DNA of 64,000 bases from Oscillospiraceae bacterium (GTDB lineage Bacteria; Bacillota; Clostridia; Lachnospirales; Lachnospiraceae). The stretch is taken from positions 248,001 to 312,000 of the forward strand of contig JAETOO010000001.1 in assembly GCA_021771715.1 (NCBI GenBank). Reading direction: 5' to 3'. The position numbers and the translations under genes are program-made. Position 1 is the first letter of the stretch. Every line of letters starts with the position of its first letter. Positions 7,018-49,990 of the stretch are shown here, one piece after another. The notes under the pieces are model-generated. The model ran no database searches and was not told the origin of the DNA. It saw only the letters and a program-made list of their open reading frames with translations.

Positions 7018-7975
7018 ATTAGAAAAAAAACTTCTGCTCGCCGGCAAGATTGCCCTGGGAAGCAGTCTTGCCATCTACACGGCGGAACTCCTGCAGCTTC
7101 AGTTCTCGGCCTCCGCGGGGATCGTCGCCATGCTGACGCTGATCACCACCAAAAAAGGGACGGTCCGGCTCTCCGCATTCCGGCTGCTCTCCTTCGCTCT
7201 GACCTCCGTTCTGGCCTGGGTCACTTTCGTGCCGATTCAATGCGAGTGGATCGCCTACGGCGTCTTCATCTTCGTCCTCGTCCTCCTGTCCGAGGCCGGC
7301 AACTGGCGCGCCACACTCTCCGTCAACGCGGTGATCGGCACCCACTTTCTGATGACCGGCACGTACACTCCGGCCTTTTTTCTGAATGAATTCCTGCTCG
7401 TGGCCATCGGCGTCCTCTTCGCGTTCGTGCTGAATCTCTTCCACAATAACTATGGGCAGAAGGAACGGCTTCAGGAGAGTATCCACGAGATCGAGGGGCA
7501 GATCCAGCGAATCCTCGAGGGAATCGCCGCGTACCTCTCGCAGACGCCCCAGGACAAAAGCGTGTGGACCGAGATCTCACGGCTGGAGCGGCGGCTCCAG
7601 ACGCTCATACAGGATGCCTGTGAGTACGAGGGAAATACCTTCGGGAAGGAGGCCGCATATTTTTCGAGATATTTTGAGATGCGCCTGAGTCAGTGCCAGA
7701 TTCTGCACAGCCTGCACCAGGAAATGGGCAAAATGAGGACGATGCCCCGGCAGGCCGAGATCATCGTCCAGTATATCCTCTATCTGACAGCTTTCGTCAC
7801 AGAGCTCAACGAGCCGACGCCCCAGCTGGCGTACCTCGAGGACCTGTTTGCGAAAATGAAGCGAGAGCCGCTCCCCACAAGCAGAGAAGAATTCGAGAGC
7901 CGCGCCATGCTCTACCACATCCTCATGGATCTGGAGGAGTTTCTGCTCGTCAAGGCGCGGTTTGTGAAGGAGTGA
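7007..7975 (+). CDS. Aromatic acid exporter family (ArAE-like) membrane protein
   Basis: The 322-residue protein has four to five membrane segments in the first 145 residues (for example ITTKKGTVRLSAFRLLSFAL about 45-64 and a hydrophobic run at 120-145) and a soluble, mostly helical C-terminal half of about 175 residues. This is the layout of the Gram-positive aromatic acid exporter family (ArAE_1 with its C-terminal domain, formerly DUF939). Transport substrate is unproven for most members. The start has GAGGA 8 nt upstream and overlaps a possible leader peptide. It is convergent with the guanylate kinase gene. Confidence 0.8.
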   Translation: MSDKLEKKLLLAGKIALGSSLAIYTAELLQLQFSASAGIVAMLTLITTKKGTVRLSAFRLLSFALTSVLAWVTFVPIQCEWIAYGVFIFVLVLLSEAGNWRATLSVNAVIGTHFLMTGTYTPAFFLNEFLLVAIGVLFAFVLNLFHNNYGQKERLQESIHEIEGQIQRILEGIAAYLSQTPQDKSVWTEISRLERRLQTLIQDACEYEGNTFGKEAAYFSRYFEMRLSQCQILHSLHQEMGKMRTMPRQAEIIVQYILYLTAFVTELNEPTPQLAYLEDLFAKMKREPLPTSREEFESRAMLYHILMDLEEFLLVKARFVKE

Positions 7976-7997
7976 GCGATCTCTTTTCCGTCACGGC

Positions 7998-8015
7998 AGG
8001 GCTTTCCGCAGCCCT
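7998..8015. terminator. Short hairpin between convergent genes
   Basis: AGGGCT (7998-8003) and AGCCCT (8010-8015) form a 6-bp stem with a 6-nt loop in the 39-bp gap between two converging genes. There is no clear T-run on either side, so this is a weak bidirectional terminator candidate. Confidence 0.35.
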
Positions 8016-8605
8016 TACAACTGCTCCCGGATATAGTGTTCGATTGCCCTGATGCAGTCCCGGCACTCTCCGTCGTTCGCGAACCGGCGCGTGATCCCGG
8101 CCTGCGCGATCTTCTCCTCGGTGAAATCTTCCTCATCCGCCACATATCTGCGGCAGACTTCCTTGTAGTTCGGCGTCGCCTGTGCCTCCTCCCGGCGGAT
8201 CGCGCGCAGCAGCCGCTCCCGGTCGCCGACCTCAATGTAGATCGGGAGCACGCGATCCTCCCCATAGTACGATTTCAGCTTGCGGAAGGATTCGAGCGTG
8301 CCGACCGCGAGGTAATTCTGTCGCGCAAGGTCGATCGCCTCCGTGTCCGCCGTAAAATAGTACCACGGGCCGCACACGGAAGGATACACGCGCAGCTCAA
8401 TCACGCTGCCCTCCTGCTGCATCCGGTGCAACGTGTCCTCTGTCACAAAATGGTACTGCACTCCGTCCGCCTCATTCGCGCGGATCGGGCGCGTCGTGTA
8501 TGTCACGACCGGTTCAAGGCCCAGATGTGCGCGGGCGAGCAGATCGGCGTAGATTGTGTCCTTTCCTGATGAACTTTTTCCCATAATATAAAATAGTTTT
8601 CCCAT
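8015..8605 (-). CDS. gmk: Guanylate kinase
   Basis: The 196-residue protein has the P-loop GKSSSGKDT (about residues 9-17), the TYTTRPIRANEADGVQYHFV GMP-binding segment (about 36-55, with the Arg and Tyr that contact GMP) and normal guanylate kinase length. It phosphorylates GMP to GDP. The P-loop reads SSSGKDT rather than the usual PSGxGKST, so it belongs to a divergent clostridial group often found with an Orn/Lys/Arg decarboxylase gene, as here. AGGAG precedes the ATG and a hairpin (8619-8645) stands immediately upstream of it. Confidence 0.85.
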   Translation of the reverse strand: MGKLFYIMGKSSSGKDTIYADLLARAHLGLEPVVTYTTRPIRANEADGVQYHFVTEDTLHRMQQEGSVIELRVYPSVCGPWYYFTADTEAIDLARQNYLAVGTLESFRKLKSYYGEDRVLPIYIEVGDRERLLRAIRREEAQATPNYKEVCRRYVADEEDFTEEKIAQAGITRRFANDGECRDCIRAIEHYIREQL

Positions 8606-10748: not shown

Positions 10749-11739
10749 TCGCCCAGCTTGTGCAGAACCGCACAGCGCTGTGCTCCTCGTCCACTTTCTC
10801 CCAGAATTCAAACGCAAACTGCTCTGAGAGCCGGTCGATCTCCTCCTTCGGAAGGATCGGGAACTGCTGATTGGTCCAGGAATCGACGAGCATCGGGTAT
10901 CCCTTCGCCGTGAATGCTTCCCGCAGCCGCAACGCAAGACGGTCCGCGTGCTCTGAGATGCGGAAATACAGGTCATCGCTCATCAGCGTGTCGAACTGCA
11001 GGCCGAGCAGCCTTCCTTTCGCGAGCATCCCGCCGCGCTGCTTGATCAGATAGCGGAAGTCCCGCGCCAGCTCCGGATTCGTGATCACAACTGCCTCGCC
11101 AAAGAGCGCGCCGCACTTCGTCCCGCCGATATAGAAGACATCGCACAGGTCCGCGATCTCCTCCAGCGACAGATCATTTTTACAGGACATCAGCCCGTAG
11201 CCAAGCCGTGCGCCGTCAATAAACAGCGGCAAATGGCAGGCGCGGCATACCCGGCTGATCTCCTGCAGCTCTGCCTTCGTGTAGAGTGTCCCGTACTCGG
11301 TTGGGAAGGAAATGTAGACCATTCCCGGCTGCACGATGTGCTCATGGCTGCCGTCCGCCCAGTGTGCGCGGTACAACTCCTCGATCTGCTGCGCGCAGAT
11401 CTTTCCCTCTTTTCCCGGCACCGCCAGCACCTTATGTCCGGTCGCCTCGACCGCTCCCGTCTCATGGGCATTGATATGCCCGGTCGTCGCGGCGACGACC
11501 CCTTGATGCGGGCGCAGGATCGAGCAGATCACTGTCATATTCGCCTGCGTTCCGCCAACGAGGAACTGCACCTCGGCCTCCGGCTTTTTGCACAGAGCGC
11601 GAATCCTCGCACGCGCACTCTCGCTGATCTCATCCATCCCGTAGCCCGGCGTCTGCATCAGGTTCGTCTTCATCATCCGGTCCATAATCTCCCAAACGGC
11701 GCCCTCGCCGTAATCGCATTCAAATCTGATCTTCTTCAT
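10708..11739 (-). CDS. Low-specificity L-threonine aldolase family protein
   Basis: The 343-residue protein is a fold-type I PLP enzyme of the threonine aldolase/beta-eliminating lyase group. It shows FLVGGTQANMTV (about 59-70), HINAHETGAVEATGHKV (about 87-103) and the PLP-binding lysine in YIGGTKCGALFGE (about 196-208). The family cleaves L-threonine or L-allo-threonine to glycine and acetaldehyde. The ATG at 11739 has AAGGAGGAAAGGACAT before it; a longer in-frame start at 11781 is less likely. A promoter is visible at 11790-11818. The 3' end of this gene is duplicated downstream several times. Confidence 0.88.
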   Translation of the reverse strand: MKKIRFECDYGEGAVWEIMDRMMKTNLMQTPGYGMDEISESARARIRALCKKPEAEVQFLVGGTQANMTVICSILRPHQGVVAATTGHINAHETGAVEATGHKVLAVPGKEGKICAQQIEELYRAHWADGSHEHIVQPGMVYISFPTEYGTLYTKAELQEISRVCRACHLPLFIDGARLGYGLMSCKNDLSLEEIADLCDVFYIGGTKCGALFGEAVVITNPELARDFRYLIKQRGGMLAKGRLLGLQFDTLMSDDLYFRISEHADRLALRLREAFTAKGYPMLVDSWTNQQFPILPKEEIDRLSEQFAFEFWEKVDEEHSAVRFCTSWATTEESVEQLIAAL

Positions 11740-29210: not shown

Positions 29211-29452
29211 GGCGGTCCTCCAATCCGACTATAACTATTGCCTTACTGTTGCATATTGCCCTCGTTCCCATCGCGTCCCTCCACTGGCGAAAGCCCCAGA
29301 TTGCTCCGCACTGCGTGCTCCCGCAATCTGACACGTATTCGCAATCCGGGCTACCGCCCTCCTTGCTCATACGTGTTAGCGTCTCTAATGGAAAGCCTGC
29401 CTTGCGTGCAAGCACGCAGTCCGGCTCCCCATTGAGACTGGGCTTTCTTTCG
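29211..29452. other. Spacer with two dyads between cardiolipin synthase and carboxyltransferase genes
   Basis: The stretch contains inverted repeats CAGATTGC/GCAATCTG (29297-29304 and 29323-29330) and GCGTGC/GCACGC (29404-29409 and 29412-29417). A reading frame of about 65 codons on the minus strand runs into the carboxyltransferase out of frame; no start signal or family supports it. I see no gene. Confidence 0.35.
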
Positions 29453-46876: not shown

Positions 46877-46956
46877 TTCGAATGCCTCCTATCTCAATTC
46901 ACATGTTCTACTCATTCAAAGAATCAACTGCGAAACAACAACTTCCAGCTCAATCG

Positions 46957-46985
46957 AAAAAAGAGCAGCGGATCCTGCTCCTTCT
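46957..46985 (-). terminator. Intrinsic-terminator-like hairpin in the pilus operon leader
   Basis: On the minus strand GAGCAG, loop GATCCG, CTGCTC is followed at once by TTTTTT (46957-46980); the stem can extend through five A/G residues pairing with the T-run to 46985. It lies 80 bp upstream of the tip gene start and downstream of the invertible segment, so any transcript from the switch must read through it. Confidence 0.6.
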
Positions 46986-47071
46986 GCTCAAGACTCTTCT
47001 TCCACAACGACAGCGGAATCATTTTACAGACCGTGCCGTGCTTCTATTACATCCCTGATGCAGCTGCTGGT

Positions 47072-47094
47072 ACATAGTTCCCACTATGTAGTAA
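47072..47094 (+). repeat. Left inverted repeat / recombination site
   Basis: A 23-bp site with perfect internal dyad ACATAGT-TCCC-ACTATGT. It matches the right site in inverse orientation at 21 of 23 positions. Confidence 0.85.
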
Positions 47095-47276
47095 ATCGCC
47101 TGACTCAGAGAGCTTCCAATCTGAAAAAATAGGCGATTTGTTCACATACAGCTGCACTCTCAGCATCTTTTTCTAAAAAAAAATACTCTGAGGGTGTACT
47201 TATTCTGCCCACTTTCAGCCCTGTTCTGCTTGCAAAAAAATATTGCCTCTAATCGTGTCATTTTTTTCAGAGGTAC

Positions 47277-47305
47277 TTGTTTTTTTGCATTCTTTGTGAT
47301 AAAAT
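47277..47305 (+). promoter_or_regulatory. Promoter inside the invertible segment
   Basis: TTGTTT (47277-47282), 17 bp, TAAAAT (47300-47305) on the plus strand. It is the only convincing promoter in the segment; no equally good one was found on the minus strand. Confidence 0.6.
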
Positions 47306-47348
47306 TCTAGTACGTATGGATTGAATATGTATATTTGTAGAAAACGGA

Positions 47349-47371
47349 TTACAACATAGTGGGAATTATGT
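47349..47371 (-). repeat. Right inverted repeat / recombination site
   Basis: A 23-bp site containing ACATAGTGGGAA, the reverse complement of the left-site core, with internal dyad ACATA..TATGT. It lies 19 bp from the stop codon of the recombinase gene. Confidence 0.85.
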
Positions 47372-47390
47372 TGTTTTTTTATTGCATTCA

Positions 47391-48230
47391 CTATACCACC
47401 AGCCCAAGACGCTCAATTTTCTCCCGGTGTTCCGTGCCGGTAGACATAATATAGATACGAGTGGTATCTATGCTGCTGTGCCCCAGAATATCGGCGAGCT
47501 TGGCGATATCCTTCTCGAACCCGTAAAACGTCCGGGCGAACAGCTTGCGCAGATTGTGAGGAAAGACCTTGCTGGCCCGGACGCCTGCTTCCTCACAGAG
47601 CTGTTTCATCTGAGCCCAGATGTTGCTCCGATTCAGGGGCTTGCCGTTGCGGGTGATGAAGACTGCGCCGGATTGAATGCTGTTTTTCCGGGCGTAGTCC
47701 AGCAGCCTCTTTTGGAGCTTTTTGGGCAGCAGAATCGTCCGGGTTTTTGCCTTGCAGTTCACAGTCACTTCTCCGTGTCTTACAGCTTCCACCGTAAAAT
47801 AGCGCAGTTCAGAGACACGAATTCCCGTCCCGCAGATCGTCTCCATGATGAGGCGCAGCTGCGGTTTTTCCTTTGCCGCTTCCAGCAGGCGCAGATACTC
47901 TGCCTTCGTCAGCTCCTTCTCCTCGGCACAGTAGATCTGCCGCTGCTGGCGGATGGCTTTCACCCTGCAGTCCGGGCGGCCCAGATACTCCAACAGACTG
48001 TTGACGCTGACCAGCATAGAATTGATGGAGCGGACCGCATACTGCCGCTCGATCAGCTGCTGCTTGTAGGCCATAACCAGCTCCTTCGTCAGCGCTGCCG
48101 ATCCGACAAACGCAAAGAAAGCACGGACATCCCGGAGATATTTCTCCACGGTTGCCGTGCTCTTTTCTTCCTGAATCAGTTTTCGGCGGTAATCGCCGAT
48201 CCGTTCTTCTGTTATGATTCTTTCTTTCAT
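47391..48230 (-). CDS. Tyrosine recombinase (probable invertase of the pilus switch)
   Basis: The 279-residue protein has the SAM-like core-binding domain (about 15-85) and the catalytic domain with R138 (GTGIRVSEL), H225 and R228 (HNLRK), H251 (LGHSS) and Y260 (RIYIM): the complete RHRHY set. Its size and lack of an extended N-terminal arm-binding domain fit XerC/D-like or FimB-like invertases rather than phage integrases. AGGAGGG precedes the ATG. Its gene stops 20 bp from one of two inverted sites that bracket the predicted invertible promoter, so it is the obvious candidate to act on them. This link is inferred from position and site structure. Confidence 0.9.
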   Translation of the reverse strand: MKERIITEERIGDYRRKLIQEEKSTATVEKYLRDVRAFFAFVGSAALTKELVMAYKQQLIERQYAVRSINSMLVSVNSLLEYLGRPDCRVKAIRQQRQIYCAEEKELTKAEYLRLLEAAKEKPQLRLIMETICGTGIRVSELRYFTVEAVRHGEVTVNCKAKTRTILLPKKLQKRLLDYARKNSIQSGAVFITRNGKPLNRSNIWAQMKQLCEEAGVRASKVFPHNLRKLFARTFYGFEKDIAKLADILGHSSIDTTRIYIMSTGTEHREKIERLGLVV

Positions 48231-48345: not shown

Positions 48346-49605
48346 TTACGTATAGCAGACGCCGAATGCAGGTCTCATCTCTTCGATCTGTCCACGGGAT
48401 AAACCATACTTTGACGCAAACGCTACCCAGTTATTTTTAACAATTGTTGTAAGCTCCTTCGCACAATTTTTCGCCTCCGTTTCCGGGATTCCGAAACGAG
48501 GCGCTATTCGCACTGCGAGATCAATCGAAATACGGTTGTCCTCTTCATCTACAAGGAGGGACAATTCATCACCATACGGAACCGGATTCACATCATACAG
48601 CGGCGAAAGAATCCACCCCTTTTTCGTGAGCAAAAACGCGTGATTGCGCAGGTGATCGTCTGTGTTCGTCACCGCCATATTAAATACGATCCGCTTCCAG
48701 AGCTCTGCCAGATCCGATTTTGGCTTTGCTCCGTTTGCTTTGATGAATCCTGCGATATCCAGATAGCTTGTACCGTCTGCCGCTGAAGCTCCGTCTGTTT
48801 TTCCCAGCAGTGTCATGGCAGAAGCAAAATGAACTCTTCTTTCTCCATCACGGTCAAATCGCTTTACCAAAAACGTACTTCCAAGCCTGGAAAATTTTTC
48901 AAGTCTGGACTCCGGCACGTTCAGCCCGCACAGCCTTGCGAGATCATGAACCACTTTTTCCCACGCACCAGTATCATTTTCATCATTCTTTGACGGAAAT
49001 TTCGCAATCCAAAGCTGACCCTTTGTATCAACGACGGTTGCTTTCGGCCTTGCCCCGCCAAGAGATGAACCTGGTCTGATCAGTTGATTCAGCCACTTTT
49101 CGGAAAGTCCACTCTCATTCTTTTCAAAATTTCTAGATGCTTCCTCTAATATGCGAAGCTGAGCCCAGGGAGGTACCGCTGTCTCTTTATCATCAGACAT
49201 GAATGGTCCGTCTGGATCTTCTTTGAAACGGATTCCACCCATTCTTGTTCTGTCGTAAACTCCCAACAGATAGTCGCTGTCATACAATTTTCTCGGCTTC
49301 CGACCATCCTTTTCAGCGAGCATACGCTCTCGCCTATTCATAAGGACGCGGCCCCAGCGGTCCGGCGACGCATCGGCAAATAGCCCAAATATTTTTTTCC
49401 CGGACGGGAACTGCCTTCCCCTAAATGCCATAAGTTCCGGATCAAGACCTACGGAGAACGGATTTTTTTTCAGCCAGTCTTCATCGTATTCGAAAGAATA
49501 ACTTTCTCCCCCTTTTATGACGCTCACATAAAGATTCCCAAGCAGCACCGGTGTGTTGAAACTGAAATCATCATACACATAGATTTTTTTCTGACCTTCG
49601 GACAT
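48346..49605 (-). CDS. HipA-like serine/threonine kinase
   Basis: The 419-residue protein has the HipA N-terminal subdomain with FADASPDRWGRVLMNRR (about 75-91), the phosphate-loop motif GSSLGGARPKATV (about 183-195), and the catalytic NTDDHLRNHAFLL (about 315-327) followed by SPLYDVNPVPY (about 333-343), all typical of HipA kinases. In Escherichia coli HipA phosphorylates glutamyl-tRNA synthetase and induces dormancy; HipB neutralises it. The start overlaps the stop codon of the hipB-like gene by one base, so both are made from one transcript. Confidence 0.9.
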   Translation of the reverse strand: MSEGQKKIYVYDDFSFNTPVLLGNLYVSVIKGGESYSFEYDEDWLKKNPFSVGLDPELMAFRGRQFPSGKKIFGLFADASPDRWGRVLMNRRERMLAEKDGRKPRKLYDSDYLLGVYDRTRMGGIRFKEDPDGPFMSDDKETAVPPWAQLRILEEASRNFEKNESGLSEKWLNQLIRPGSSLGGARPKATVVDTKGQLWIAKFPSKNDENDTGAWEKVVHDLARLCGLNVPESRLEKFSRLGSTFLVKRFDRDGERRVHFASAMTLLGKTDGASAADGTSYLDIAGFIKANGAKPKSDLAELWKRIVFNMAVTNTDDHLRNHAFLLTKKGWILSPLYDVNPVPYGDELSLLVDEEDNRISIDLAVRIAPRFGIPETEAKNCAKELTTIVKNNWVAFASKYGLSRGQIEEMRPAFGVCYT

Positions 49606-49931
49606 TACTCCTTCCTCCTTGTCGCGCGCTTTCTCGTCATTAGCTGCAAATCCTGCATTTTTCTTCCCATTGCGTCATCCTTCGCTACCAGGAGAAGATC
49701 TCTATCCATATTACTGAGTGCATGCAAAACGGCAGCATAGATTCCCATAGCAACCGCCGGATTCCCCGACTCGACCTTCCAAAGAGACGCACGGCTGATT
49801 CCGGCACGTTCCGCTACCAATTCGGCCGGAAGATCACGCCTCAGCCTGGCCAGCTTGATCTGTTCCCCCATAGTCCTTAGAATCTCTTCTGTTGACGGTA
49901 CGATATTATACGCCGCTTTTTTCATTTTCAT
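49605..49931 (-). CDS. HipB-like antitoxin, Xre-type helix-turn-helix
   Basis: The 108-residue protein has an Xre-type helix-turn-helix at about residues 20-75 (IKLARLRRDLPAELVAERAG, then ISRASLWKVESGNPAVAMG). It is the first gene of the hipBA-like operon and would bind and inhibit the kinase and repress its own promoter, which has perfect consensus -35 and -10 elements at 49962-49990. No ribosome binding site of note is visible at the start. Confidence 0.87.
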   Translation of the reverse strand: MKMKKAAYNIVPSTEEILRTMGEQIKLARLRRDLPAELVAERAGISRASLWKVESGNPAVAMGIYAAVLHALSNMDRDLLLVAKDDAMGRKMQDLQLMTRKRATRRKE

Positions 49932-49961: not shown

Positions 49962-49990
49962 ATTATATACATTAACTATGTTTATGTCAA
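49962..49990 (-). promoter_or_regulatory. Perfect-consensus promoter of the hipBA-like operon
   Basis: On the minus strand TTGACA (49985-49990), exactly 17 bp, TATAAT (49962-49967). TAATGTAT occurs twice around it (spacing about 34 bp), a possible HipB operator. A full consensus promoter with a linked repressor fits an autoregulated toxin-antitoxin locus. Confidence 0.85.

Follow-up and report, generated by a model that had tools for sequence, protein, structure and literature searches.

The window, by which we mean the whole 64,000-nucleotide stretch of DNA analysed, contains a pilus operon, a tyrosine recombinase gene and, between them, a short segment bounded by two facing repeats (Table 1). 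A class C sortase, a major pilin and an LPXTG tip occur together, the combination that marks a sortase-assembled pilus operon. The tip gene has a TTG start with AGGAGG 8 nt before it, and its protein scored 20.4 against TIGR01167 (cut-off 15.9). By eye, the N-terminal 350 residues of the tip hold many HIHDESCY / HTEDCY ... CG repeats, which look metal-binding; the paralogous tip at locus L007 (see below) is similar. Directly upstream of the recombinase gene (48346–49931, minus strand) lie genes for a 419-aa HipA-like kinase and a 108-aa HTH protein, likely a HipBA toxin–antitoxin pair, with a perfect TTGACA-17-TATAAT promoter at 49990–49962. Elsewhere in the window, a Clostridiales-1 RNA was detected at 29289–29447 (minus strand, 125 bits), and a search of the switch region for riboswitches and known RNAs found none.

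Table 1. Genes and sequence elements of the pilus locus and its predicted switch (window positions)
Feature	Position	Strand	Description
Class C sortase, 298 aa	36218..37114	-	NF033745, 279.9 bits (cut-off 160)
Backbone pilin, SpaH/EbpB type, 569 aa	37250..38959	-	NF033902, 97.1 bits (cut-off 95)
Pilus tip/adhesin, 2615 aa	39029..46876	-	VWA, DUF7604 and Cna_B domains; LPXTG-type end
Terminator-like leader hairpin	46957..46980	-	GAGCAG-GATCCG-CTGCTC + T6; between switch and tip gene
Operon-side crossover site (predicted)	47072..47094	+	Core ACATAGTTCCCACTATGT, 47072-47089
Invertible segment (predicted)	47095..47348	.	254 nt between sites; paralogous segment homologous, same orientation
Predicted sigma-A type promoter TTGTTT-17-TAAAAT	47277..47305	+	Away from pilus operon (OFF); position conserved across loci
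Recombinase-side crossover site (predicted)	47349..47371	-	Core on minus strand ACATAATTCCCACTATGT, 47354-47371
Terminator-like element	47351..47380	+	Stem ACAACATAGT / ATTATGTTGT, loop GGGA (4-bp centre), 7 T at 47374-47380
Tyrosine recombinase, presumed invertase	47391..48230	-	279 aa; Pfam Phage_integrase 6e-26

The initial annotation had described two facing 23-nt sites, each with an inner dyad, and both points held. The sites match at 21 of 23 positions, with both mismatches outside the central four bases, and the dyad can be read directly in the two cores. Facing repeats of this kind beside a recombinase gene are one hallmark of a phase switch. The pair was the sole match in the window (at least 23 nt, at most two mismatches, arms within 1 kb), and no comparable pair appeared in 10 simulated Markov windows or in 200 simulated local 1-kb stretches, which rules out a chance origin. 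In the 4.18-Mb assembly, the 18-nt arms pattern occurred without mismatch at four places only, two in the window and two at the paralogous locus, and a fifth place had two mismatches; the assembly therefore holds no extra contigs with copies in the other orientation. The core may resemble the chromosomal dif site; a dif-like pattern gave 11 matches in this genome versus 11 for the control.

The recombinase gene adjoins the right site as had been claimed, with 19 nt between its stop codon and the site. It is intact, again as described, and its stretches TGIRVSEL, KAKT, HNLR and GHSS..Y, within which we take the catalytic residues to lie, align with solved Xer proteins. Its scores fall below the NCBIfam equivalog cut-offs for XerA (135 bits; cut-off 220), XerD (105.9; 329.6) and XerC (103.6; 335.15), and a housekeeping XerC/XerD identity was rejected on these grounds. 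Spread of the module by phages or viruses was likewise rejected, as the exact site pattern had no match in viral contigs and the 57 phage records that match the recombinase are all less than 60% identical (best 44.9%, in an unannotated 10-kb record); an unannotated phage-labelled record checked for the repeat pair had none.

Relatives were collected by genus, order, family and class searches and by a scan of named genomes (4 loci). The genus of the window counts at least 47 species in the genomes searched, and its family spans 334 genera in a sample of 397 genomes, which points to Lachnospiraceae. The searches gave even samples or capped lists of matches, and a subset of the places listed was taken up; those passed over were chiefly low-scoring matches and, in some genomes, a second or third place. 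Tblastn pieces below 150 bits were also set aside (8 of 68 in the first batch, with the same limit in the second). Altogether 113 recombinase genes (60 + 53, the window's three included), 43–100% identical, were examined. The expectation that the sites be conserved where the recombinase is present was borne out, since 97 of these genes (50 + 47) have an adjacent inverted repeat, starting −26 to +166 nt from the recombinase stop. For 11 of the 16 genes without one, the contig breaks off no more than 430 nt from the stop codon, and the other five are true misses (L038, two genes of L040, L059 and L124). By comparison, 5 of 24 control integrases had a repeat of that score anywhere in 2.6–3.8 kb (within about 1.5 kb). 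The canonical pair was also present in Monoglobus pectinilyticus and on two Subdoligranulum variabile replicons (−5, +40 and +4 nt from the stop), and a Pusillibacter faecalis plasmid gene has a repeat without the canonical core before an S-layer-domain gene.

Several individual loci depart from this pattern. L038, whose recombinase is 72% identical, has a single core site (10856–10873) with the partner missing, and is perhaps a locked or decayed switch. At L207 of Subdoligranulum variabile (7886–8187), three core copies lie beside one recombinase, and two different segments could therefore invert. At L125, the segment after position 1181 (recombinase strand) has 86-nt repeat arms that contain a tRNA-like stretch, GGTTCAAGTCCCATG, besides the core site. 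In 12 of 113 cases (L049, L060, L097, L105, L112, L117, L128, L139, L140, L141, L170 and L174) the contig breaks off less than 450 nt beyond the recombinase stop, compared with four in which it does so over the same distance ahead of the gene; the presence of both orientations may disrupt assembly at the switch.

When the pairs were compared, 96 distinct ones (one of the 97 was not counted) aligned on the core ACATAAT-NNNN-ATTATGT. The 4-bp centre is identical within the pair in 96/96 cases, an agreement partly built in because the pairs were found as inverted repeats; it is never palindromic (0/96) and takes 55 different forms, with only 0.01–0.16 bits of shared information at the central four positions between loci. 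Mismatches within pairs sit on the arms and beyond. The sites behave in this as crossover regions of tyrosine recombinases do, in which the centre must match and its asymmetry sets the direction. Such a site rule, pairs of this core beside one recombinase family, would let phase-variable surface operons be located straight from the genomes of Clostridia, which make up much of the gut flora.

The predicted promoter, TTGTTT (47277–47282) and TAAAAT (47300–47305) separated by 17 nt, is present in the sequence where the initial annotation had placed it, pointing away from the pilus genes and ending 43 nt before the right site, which is also the median promoter-to-site distance across loci. A predicted promoter within the segment is a second hallmark of a phase switch, here judged by sequence. 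With 8/12 consensus bases it is weak and was absent from threshold promoter scans because it falls below their threshold. A 9/12 match facing the operon lies on the opposite strand of the segment (TATACA-18-TAGAAT, 47333–47304), but matches of this type average 1.3 in shuffles, which puts it at shuffle level, and its weighted score is 8.0 compared with 13.2 for TTGTTT-17-TAAAAT. In a switch of the cwpV type the target promoter would lie outside the segment; a scan of the minus strand of 46877–47071 listed no promoter, and the best match by sequence is inside the segment. Position is conserved in relatives: in a zone 25–60 nt from the site, with spacing 17, a score of 11 was reached by 34/50 segments and by 4.1% of shuffles, and 39/50 segments had their best promoter in this zone, compared with 14.5% of shuffles.

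The promoter faces the recombinase (OFF) in 61 of the 97 segments and the operon (ON) in 19, with 17 undecided; shuffled segments were undecided in 89.5%, ON in 4.8% and OFF in 5.6%. Assembled genomes therefore favour OFF (binomial p 3e-6, with loci that are not independent). Comparison of the 97 segments with each other gave 58 homologous pairs (E<=1e-8), 20 inverted and 38 not inverted. The segments of L054 and L057, from two species of the window's genus, align (85% over 426 nt) only when one is inverted, and the alignment ends at the repeats, while the flanks align in the same orientation on the recombinase side (93%) and on the operon side (81%). Two L113 loci of one genome likewise have inverted segments (81% over 170 nt). 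Both flanks were co-oriented in all five inverted pairs with aligned flanks (L054/L057, L055/L057, L053/L057, L050/L056 and the two L113 loci), four of which belong to the window's genus; L168/L169 is a further inverted pair in the segment comparison. Promoter direction changes accordingly, facing the recombinase in L050, L053, L054 and L055 and the operon in L051, L056, L057 and L058. The recombinases of these loci are about half identical to that of the window. Comparing orientation in related genomes, as the initial annotation had suggested, thus revealed inverted segments in related loci, the same genus included, but none in the window's own clade, and no inverted copy of the window's segment was found among the relatives. 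In the clade with at least 68% recombinase identity, 7/7 decided loci are OFF, the window included, and the homologous pairs (window/L007, L127/L129 and L130/L131) have the same orientation. As the window's locus and its six closest decided relatives are all OFF, its flipping is an inference rather than an observation.

The sites, the position of the promoter, the conservation of the module and the inversion of homologous segments in relatives can all be read from the DNA, and they lead us to propose that 47072–47371 is very probably an invertible promoter, flipped by the adjoining recombinase, that switches the pilus operon. The recombinase, which we presume to be the actor, would join the two facing sites and flip the 254-nt segment; as the 4-bp centre is identical in both sites and not palindromic, the outcome would be inversion. 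In the ON state, the promoter would read through the operon-side site into the operon (tip, pilin and sortase); the assembled orientation would be the OFF state, with the promoter reading toward the 3′ end of the recombinase gene. Pili may thereby be on in some cells and off in others. The earlier proposal of an ON/OFF pilus switch that is now OFF agrees with the position of the promoter and with inversion in relatives, although this very segment was not found inverted. The leader hairpin folds no better than shuffles (z −0.23) and is not among the hairpins listed by the terminator scans; attenuation by it is possible, because it would act on ON transcripts too.

The OFF state throughout the clade could also mean that the switch is a fossil, its sites and recombinase being relics locked OFF. 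The two mismatches between the sites and the lone site of L038 would fit such decay. However, the recombinase is complete and has its motif stretches, the two sites agree at their central bases, and the paralog retains the same arms with a matched centre of its own; we regard a fossil as unlikely.

The genes that follow the repeats are consistent with a switch acting on the neighbouring operon. Longer stretches were taken for 70 of the 97 loci, and 13 of these with less than 3 kb after the repeat were left out. In all of the remaining 57, the recombinase and the longest ORF of the 3 kb beyond the repeat run in the same direction, and in 42 the largest same-strand ORF within 9 kb is at least 800 aa. 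Pfam matches in the last 500 residues of these ORFs, counted among 25 of 51 families listed, included SLH (10 of 57), Listeria-Bacteroides repeats (10), SpaA (6) and LPXTG anchor (3). Matches to ABC transporter or helicase-associated models in a few cases show that not all targets are surface proteins. A relative from another genus (68%) stands ahead of genes for an LPXTG protein, a pilin-like protein and a sortase that shares 67% identity with that of the paralog. The nearest foreign relative among the matches listed (75%, L180 4819–14150, minus strand) precedes a signal peptidase and three camelysin-model proteins, of which one exceeds the Pfam cut-off and two fall short of it; these may form a TasA-like fibre operon.

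The same genome has further pilus operons, among which the module recurs. A recombinase paralog (82% identical, L007), 180 kb away, has the same site arms, ACATARTTCYCACTATGT, with the centre TCTC compared with TCCC at the window's locus. Downstream come signal peptidase I, a tip of 1968 aa (fimbrial isopeptide domain, LPXTG-type end), a pilin-like LPXTG protein that passes the cut-off for the isopeptide domain but not for the SpaH/EbpB model, and lastly a class C sortase. The segments of the two loci match in the same orientation (score 7.5, compared with −28 when inverted and −31, sd 6.3, for shuffles), and that of the paralog has a TTGCAT-17-TATCAT promoter at the same place as the window's; the flanks align on the recombinase side (41) but not on the operon side (−26.5). 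A third recombinase (55%) lies ahead of another, different repeat pair, beyond which come two small ORFs, a giant adhesin with the end LPSSG, an LPXTG pilin of SpaH/EbpB type and two class C sortases. The fourth operon comprises signal peptidase I, a 3385-aa LPETG protein, a pilin and a sortase, and in the 18 kb taken there was no repeat scoring at least 15 and no relative of the recombinase. Of the four sortase-pilus operons that this genome yielded, three therefore have the module; the set was defined by class C sortase matches at E<=1e-60 and so covers close sortases only. As each of the three switches has a centre of its own, the three pili could occur in up to eight combinations among cells. 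The idea that different centres insulate paralogous loci was dropped: 0/20 within-genome pairs and 90/4540 between-genome pairs share a centre, and the test is without power because sharing between genomes is so rare.

The recombinase-side site has an additional property. Its fold in the direction of the recombinase has −10.9 kcal/mol (z −4.2) and that of the corresponding site of the paralog −8.1 kcal/mol (z −4.3), whereas the operon-side site with its own flank gave z −0.8. Of 95 loci (95 of the 96 pairs could be placed), 46 have a T-tract (6 of 8) beyond the core at the recombinase-side exit, compared with 6 at the operon exit, 2 and 7 at the inward exits, 3 on the other strand of the same flank, and 6, 9 and 5 at shifts of 15, 30 and 60 nt. 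Because of this excess, the recombinase-side site looks like a one-way terminator. The tract is absent in 49/95 loci, in 28 of which the core lies within 8 nt of the stop, where a tract would be coding; where the core lies at least 12 nt past the stop, it is present in 26/44. The simplest reading is that the crossover site would end the OFF-oriented transcript before the recombinase gene, the dyad and the flanking T-tract together forming the terminator that this transcript should meet. More tentatively, and with a likelihood a little short of even, the site may act as a one-way valve, in which the dyad provides the stem, the 4-bp centre the loop, and the chromosomal T-tract on the recombinase side completes the terminator; the OFF promoter would be stopped before antisense is read through the recombinase, while the operon-side site, without a tract, would let the ON promoter pass. 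Recombinase supply would then be equal in both states, and such an element, if real, would combine a recombination site and a transcription insulator in about 30 bp.

These observations also bear on whether the pilus genes are mere neighbours, the sites serving another system, such as integration or deletion, and the promoter giving rise to a small RNA or an antisense transcript of the recombinase. The assembled promoter does aim at the recombinase gene, as in 61/80 decided loci, and the leader hairpin stands between the switch and the tip gene. However, the sites are inverted and not direct, a co-directional gene follows in 57/57 loci, operon-facing promoters occur in 19 loci and homologous segments are inverted, and in 46/95 loci antisense transcripts would be halted by the T-tract ahead of the recombinase, which together make this explanation very unlikely. 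Least probable of all is switching by transcription termination, as at cwpV of Clostridioides difficile, from a promoter outside the segment (e.g. recombinase read-through): terminator-like hairpins are indeed present at the right site and in the leader and the recombinase is co-directional with the operon, but the promoter occupies a conserved position within the segment and, in relatives, changes direction along with it, and the T-tract faces the recombinase, not the operon.

An invertible promoter for the pilus operon thus remains the preferred reading, and it has several published counterparts. The locus and its sites had been held to be undescribed, and a literature search, with most subscription journals outside its scope, found no account of the locus or of a switch of this kind at a sortase-pilus operon and, among the papers listed, no report of a one-way terminator at a recombinase-side crossover site; yet both a group of Clostridia invertons (PMC11892184) and an invertible promoter of an LPXTG protein (PMC2654543) are in print. 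Jin et al. 2025 described 33 invertons (32 in Clostridia) with one repeat group and one tyrosine recombinase group, and read-level orientation shifts, found in Clostridium sp. D5 and Intestinimonas butyriciproducens (PMC11892184). Like the window's module, inverton group 139 with invertase group 35 consists of small Clostridia segments, nearly all beside a tyrosine-type recombinase, and it probably includes the present kind, a likeness drawn from the main text of that paper; the words pilus, pili and sortase are absent from that main text (PMC11892184).

In enteric bacteria, the fim switch (314 bp, FimB/FimE) and the mrp switch (252 bp, MrpI) resemble the window's in having a promoter on a 250–300 bp segment beside tyrosine recombinase genes and a pilus operon, and the mrp switch sits between a sole recombinase gene and the pilin gene (PMC9820224). 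Unlike the window's operon, they control chaperone-usher fimbriae, and the fim repeats are 9 bp (PMC9820224). The window's recombinase also differs from fim-type invertases, falling far below the cut-offs of the FimB/FimE-like DNA invertase models PRK09870 (22.9; cut-off 221) and PRK09871 (24.5; 222).

The nearest Gram-positive surface-protein precedent found is SZO08560 of Streptococcus zooepidemicus, whose invertible promoter was in reverse orientation in five reads (PMC2654543). Here too a promoter segment and an adjacent recombinase accompany an LPXTG surface protein, but the segment spans −170 to −55, has 10-bp repeats, GTAGACTTTA, and controls one surface protein with no pilus operon (PMC2654543). 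In Clostridioides difficile, the RecV switches (cwpV and flg) and pdcB share with the window the class Clostridia, surface structures and a tyrosine recombinase (that of pdcB is not identified in the sources), and at pdcB, as at the window, the promoter is invertible (PMC2784873, PMC5386303, PMC9286219). RecV acts on several distant switches, in contrast with the window's adjoining recombinase; at cwpV, the promoter is outside and a terminator at the repeat is proposed to silence the target, whereas the window's faces the recombinase (same sources). Promoter inversion and a Clostridia inverton–invertase group have therefore already been published, and the module in the window is a variant on these.
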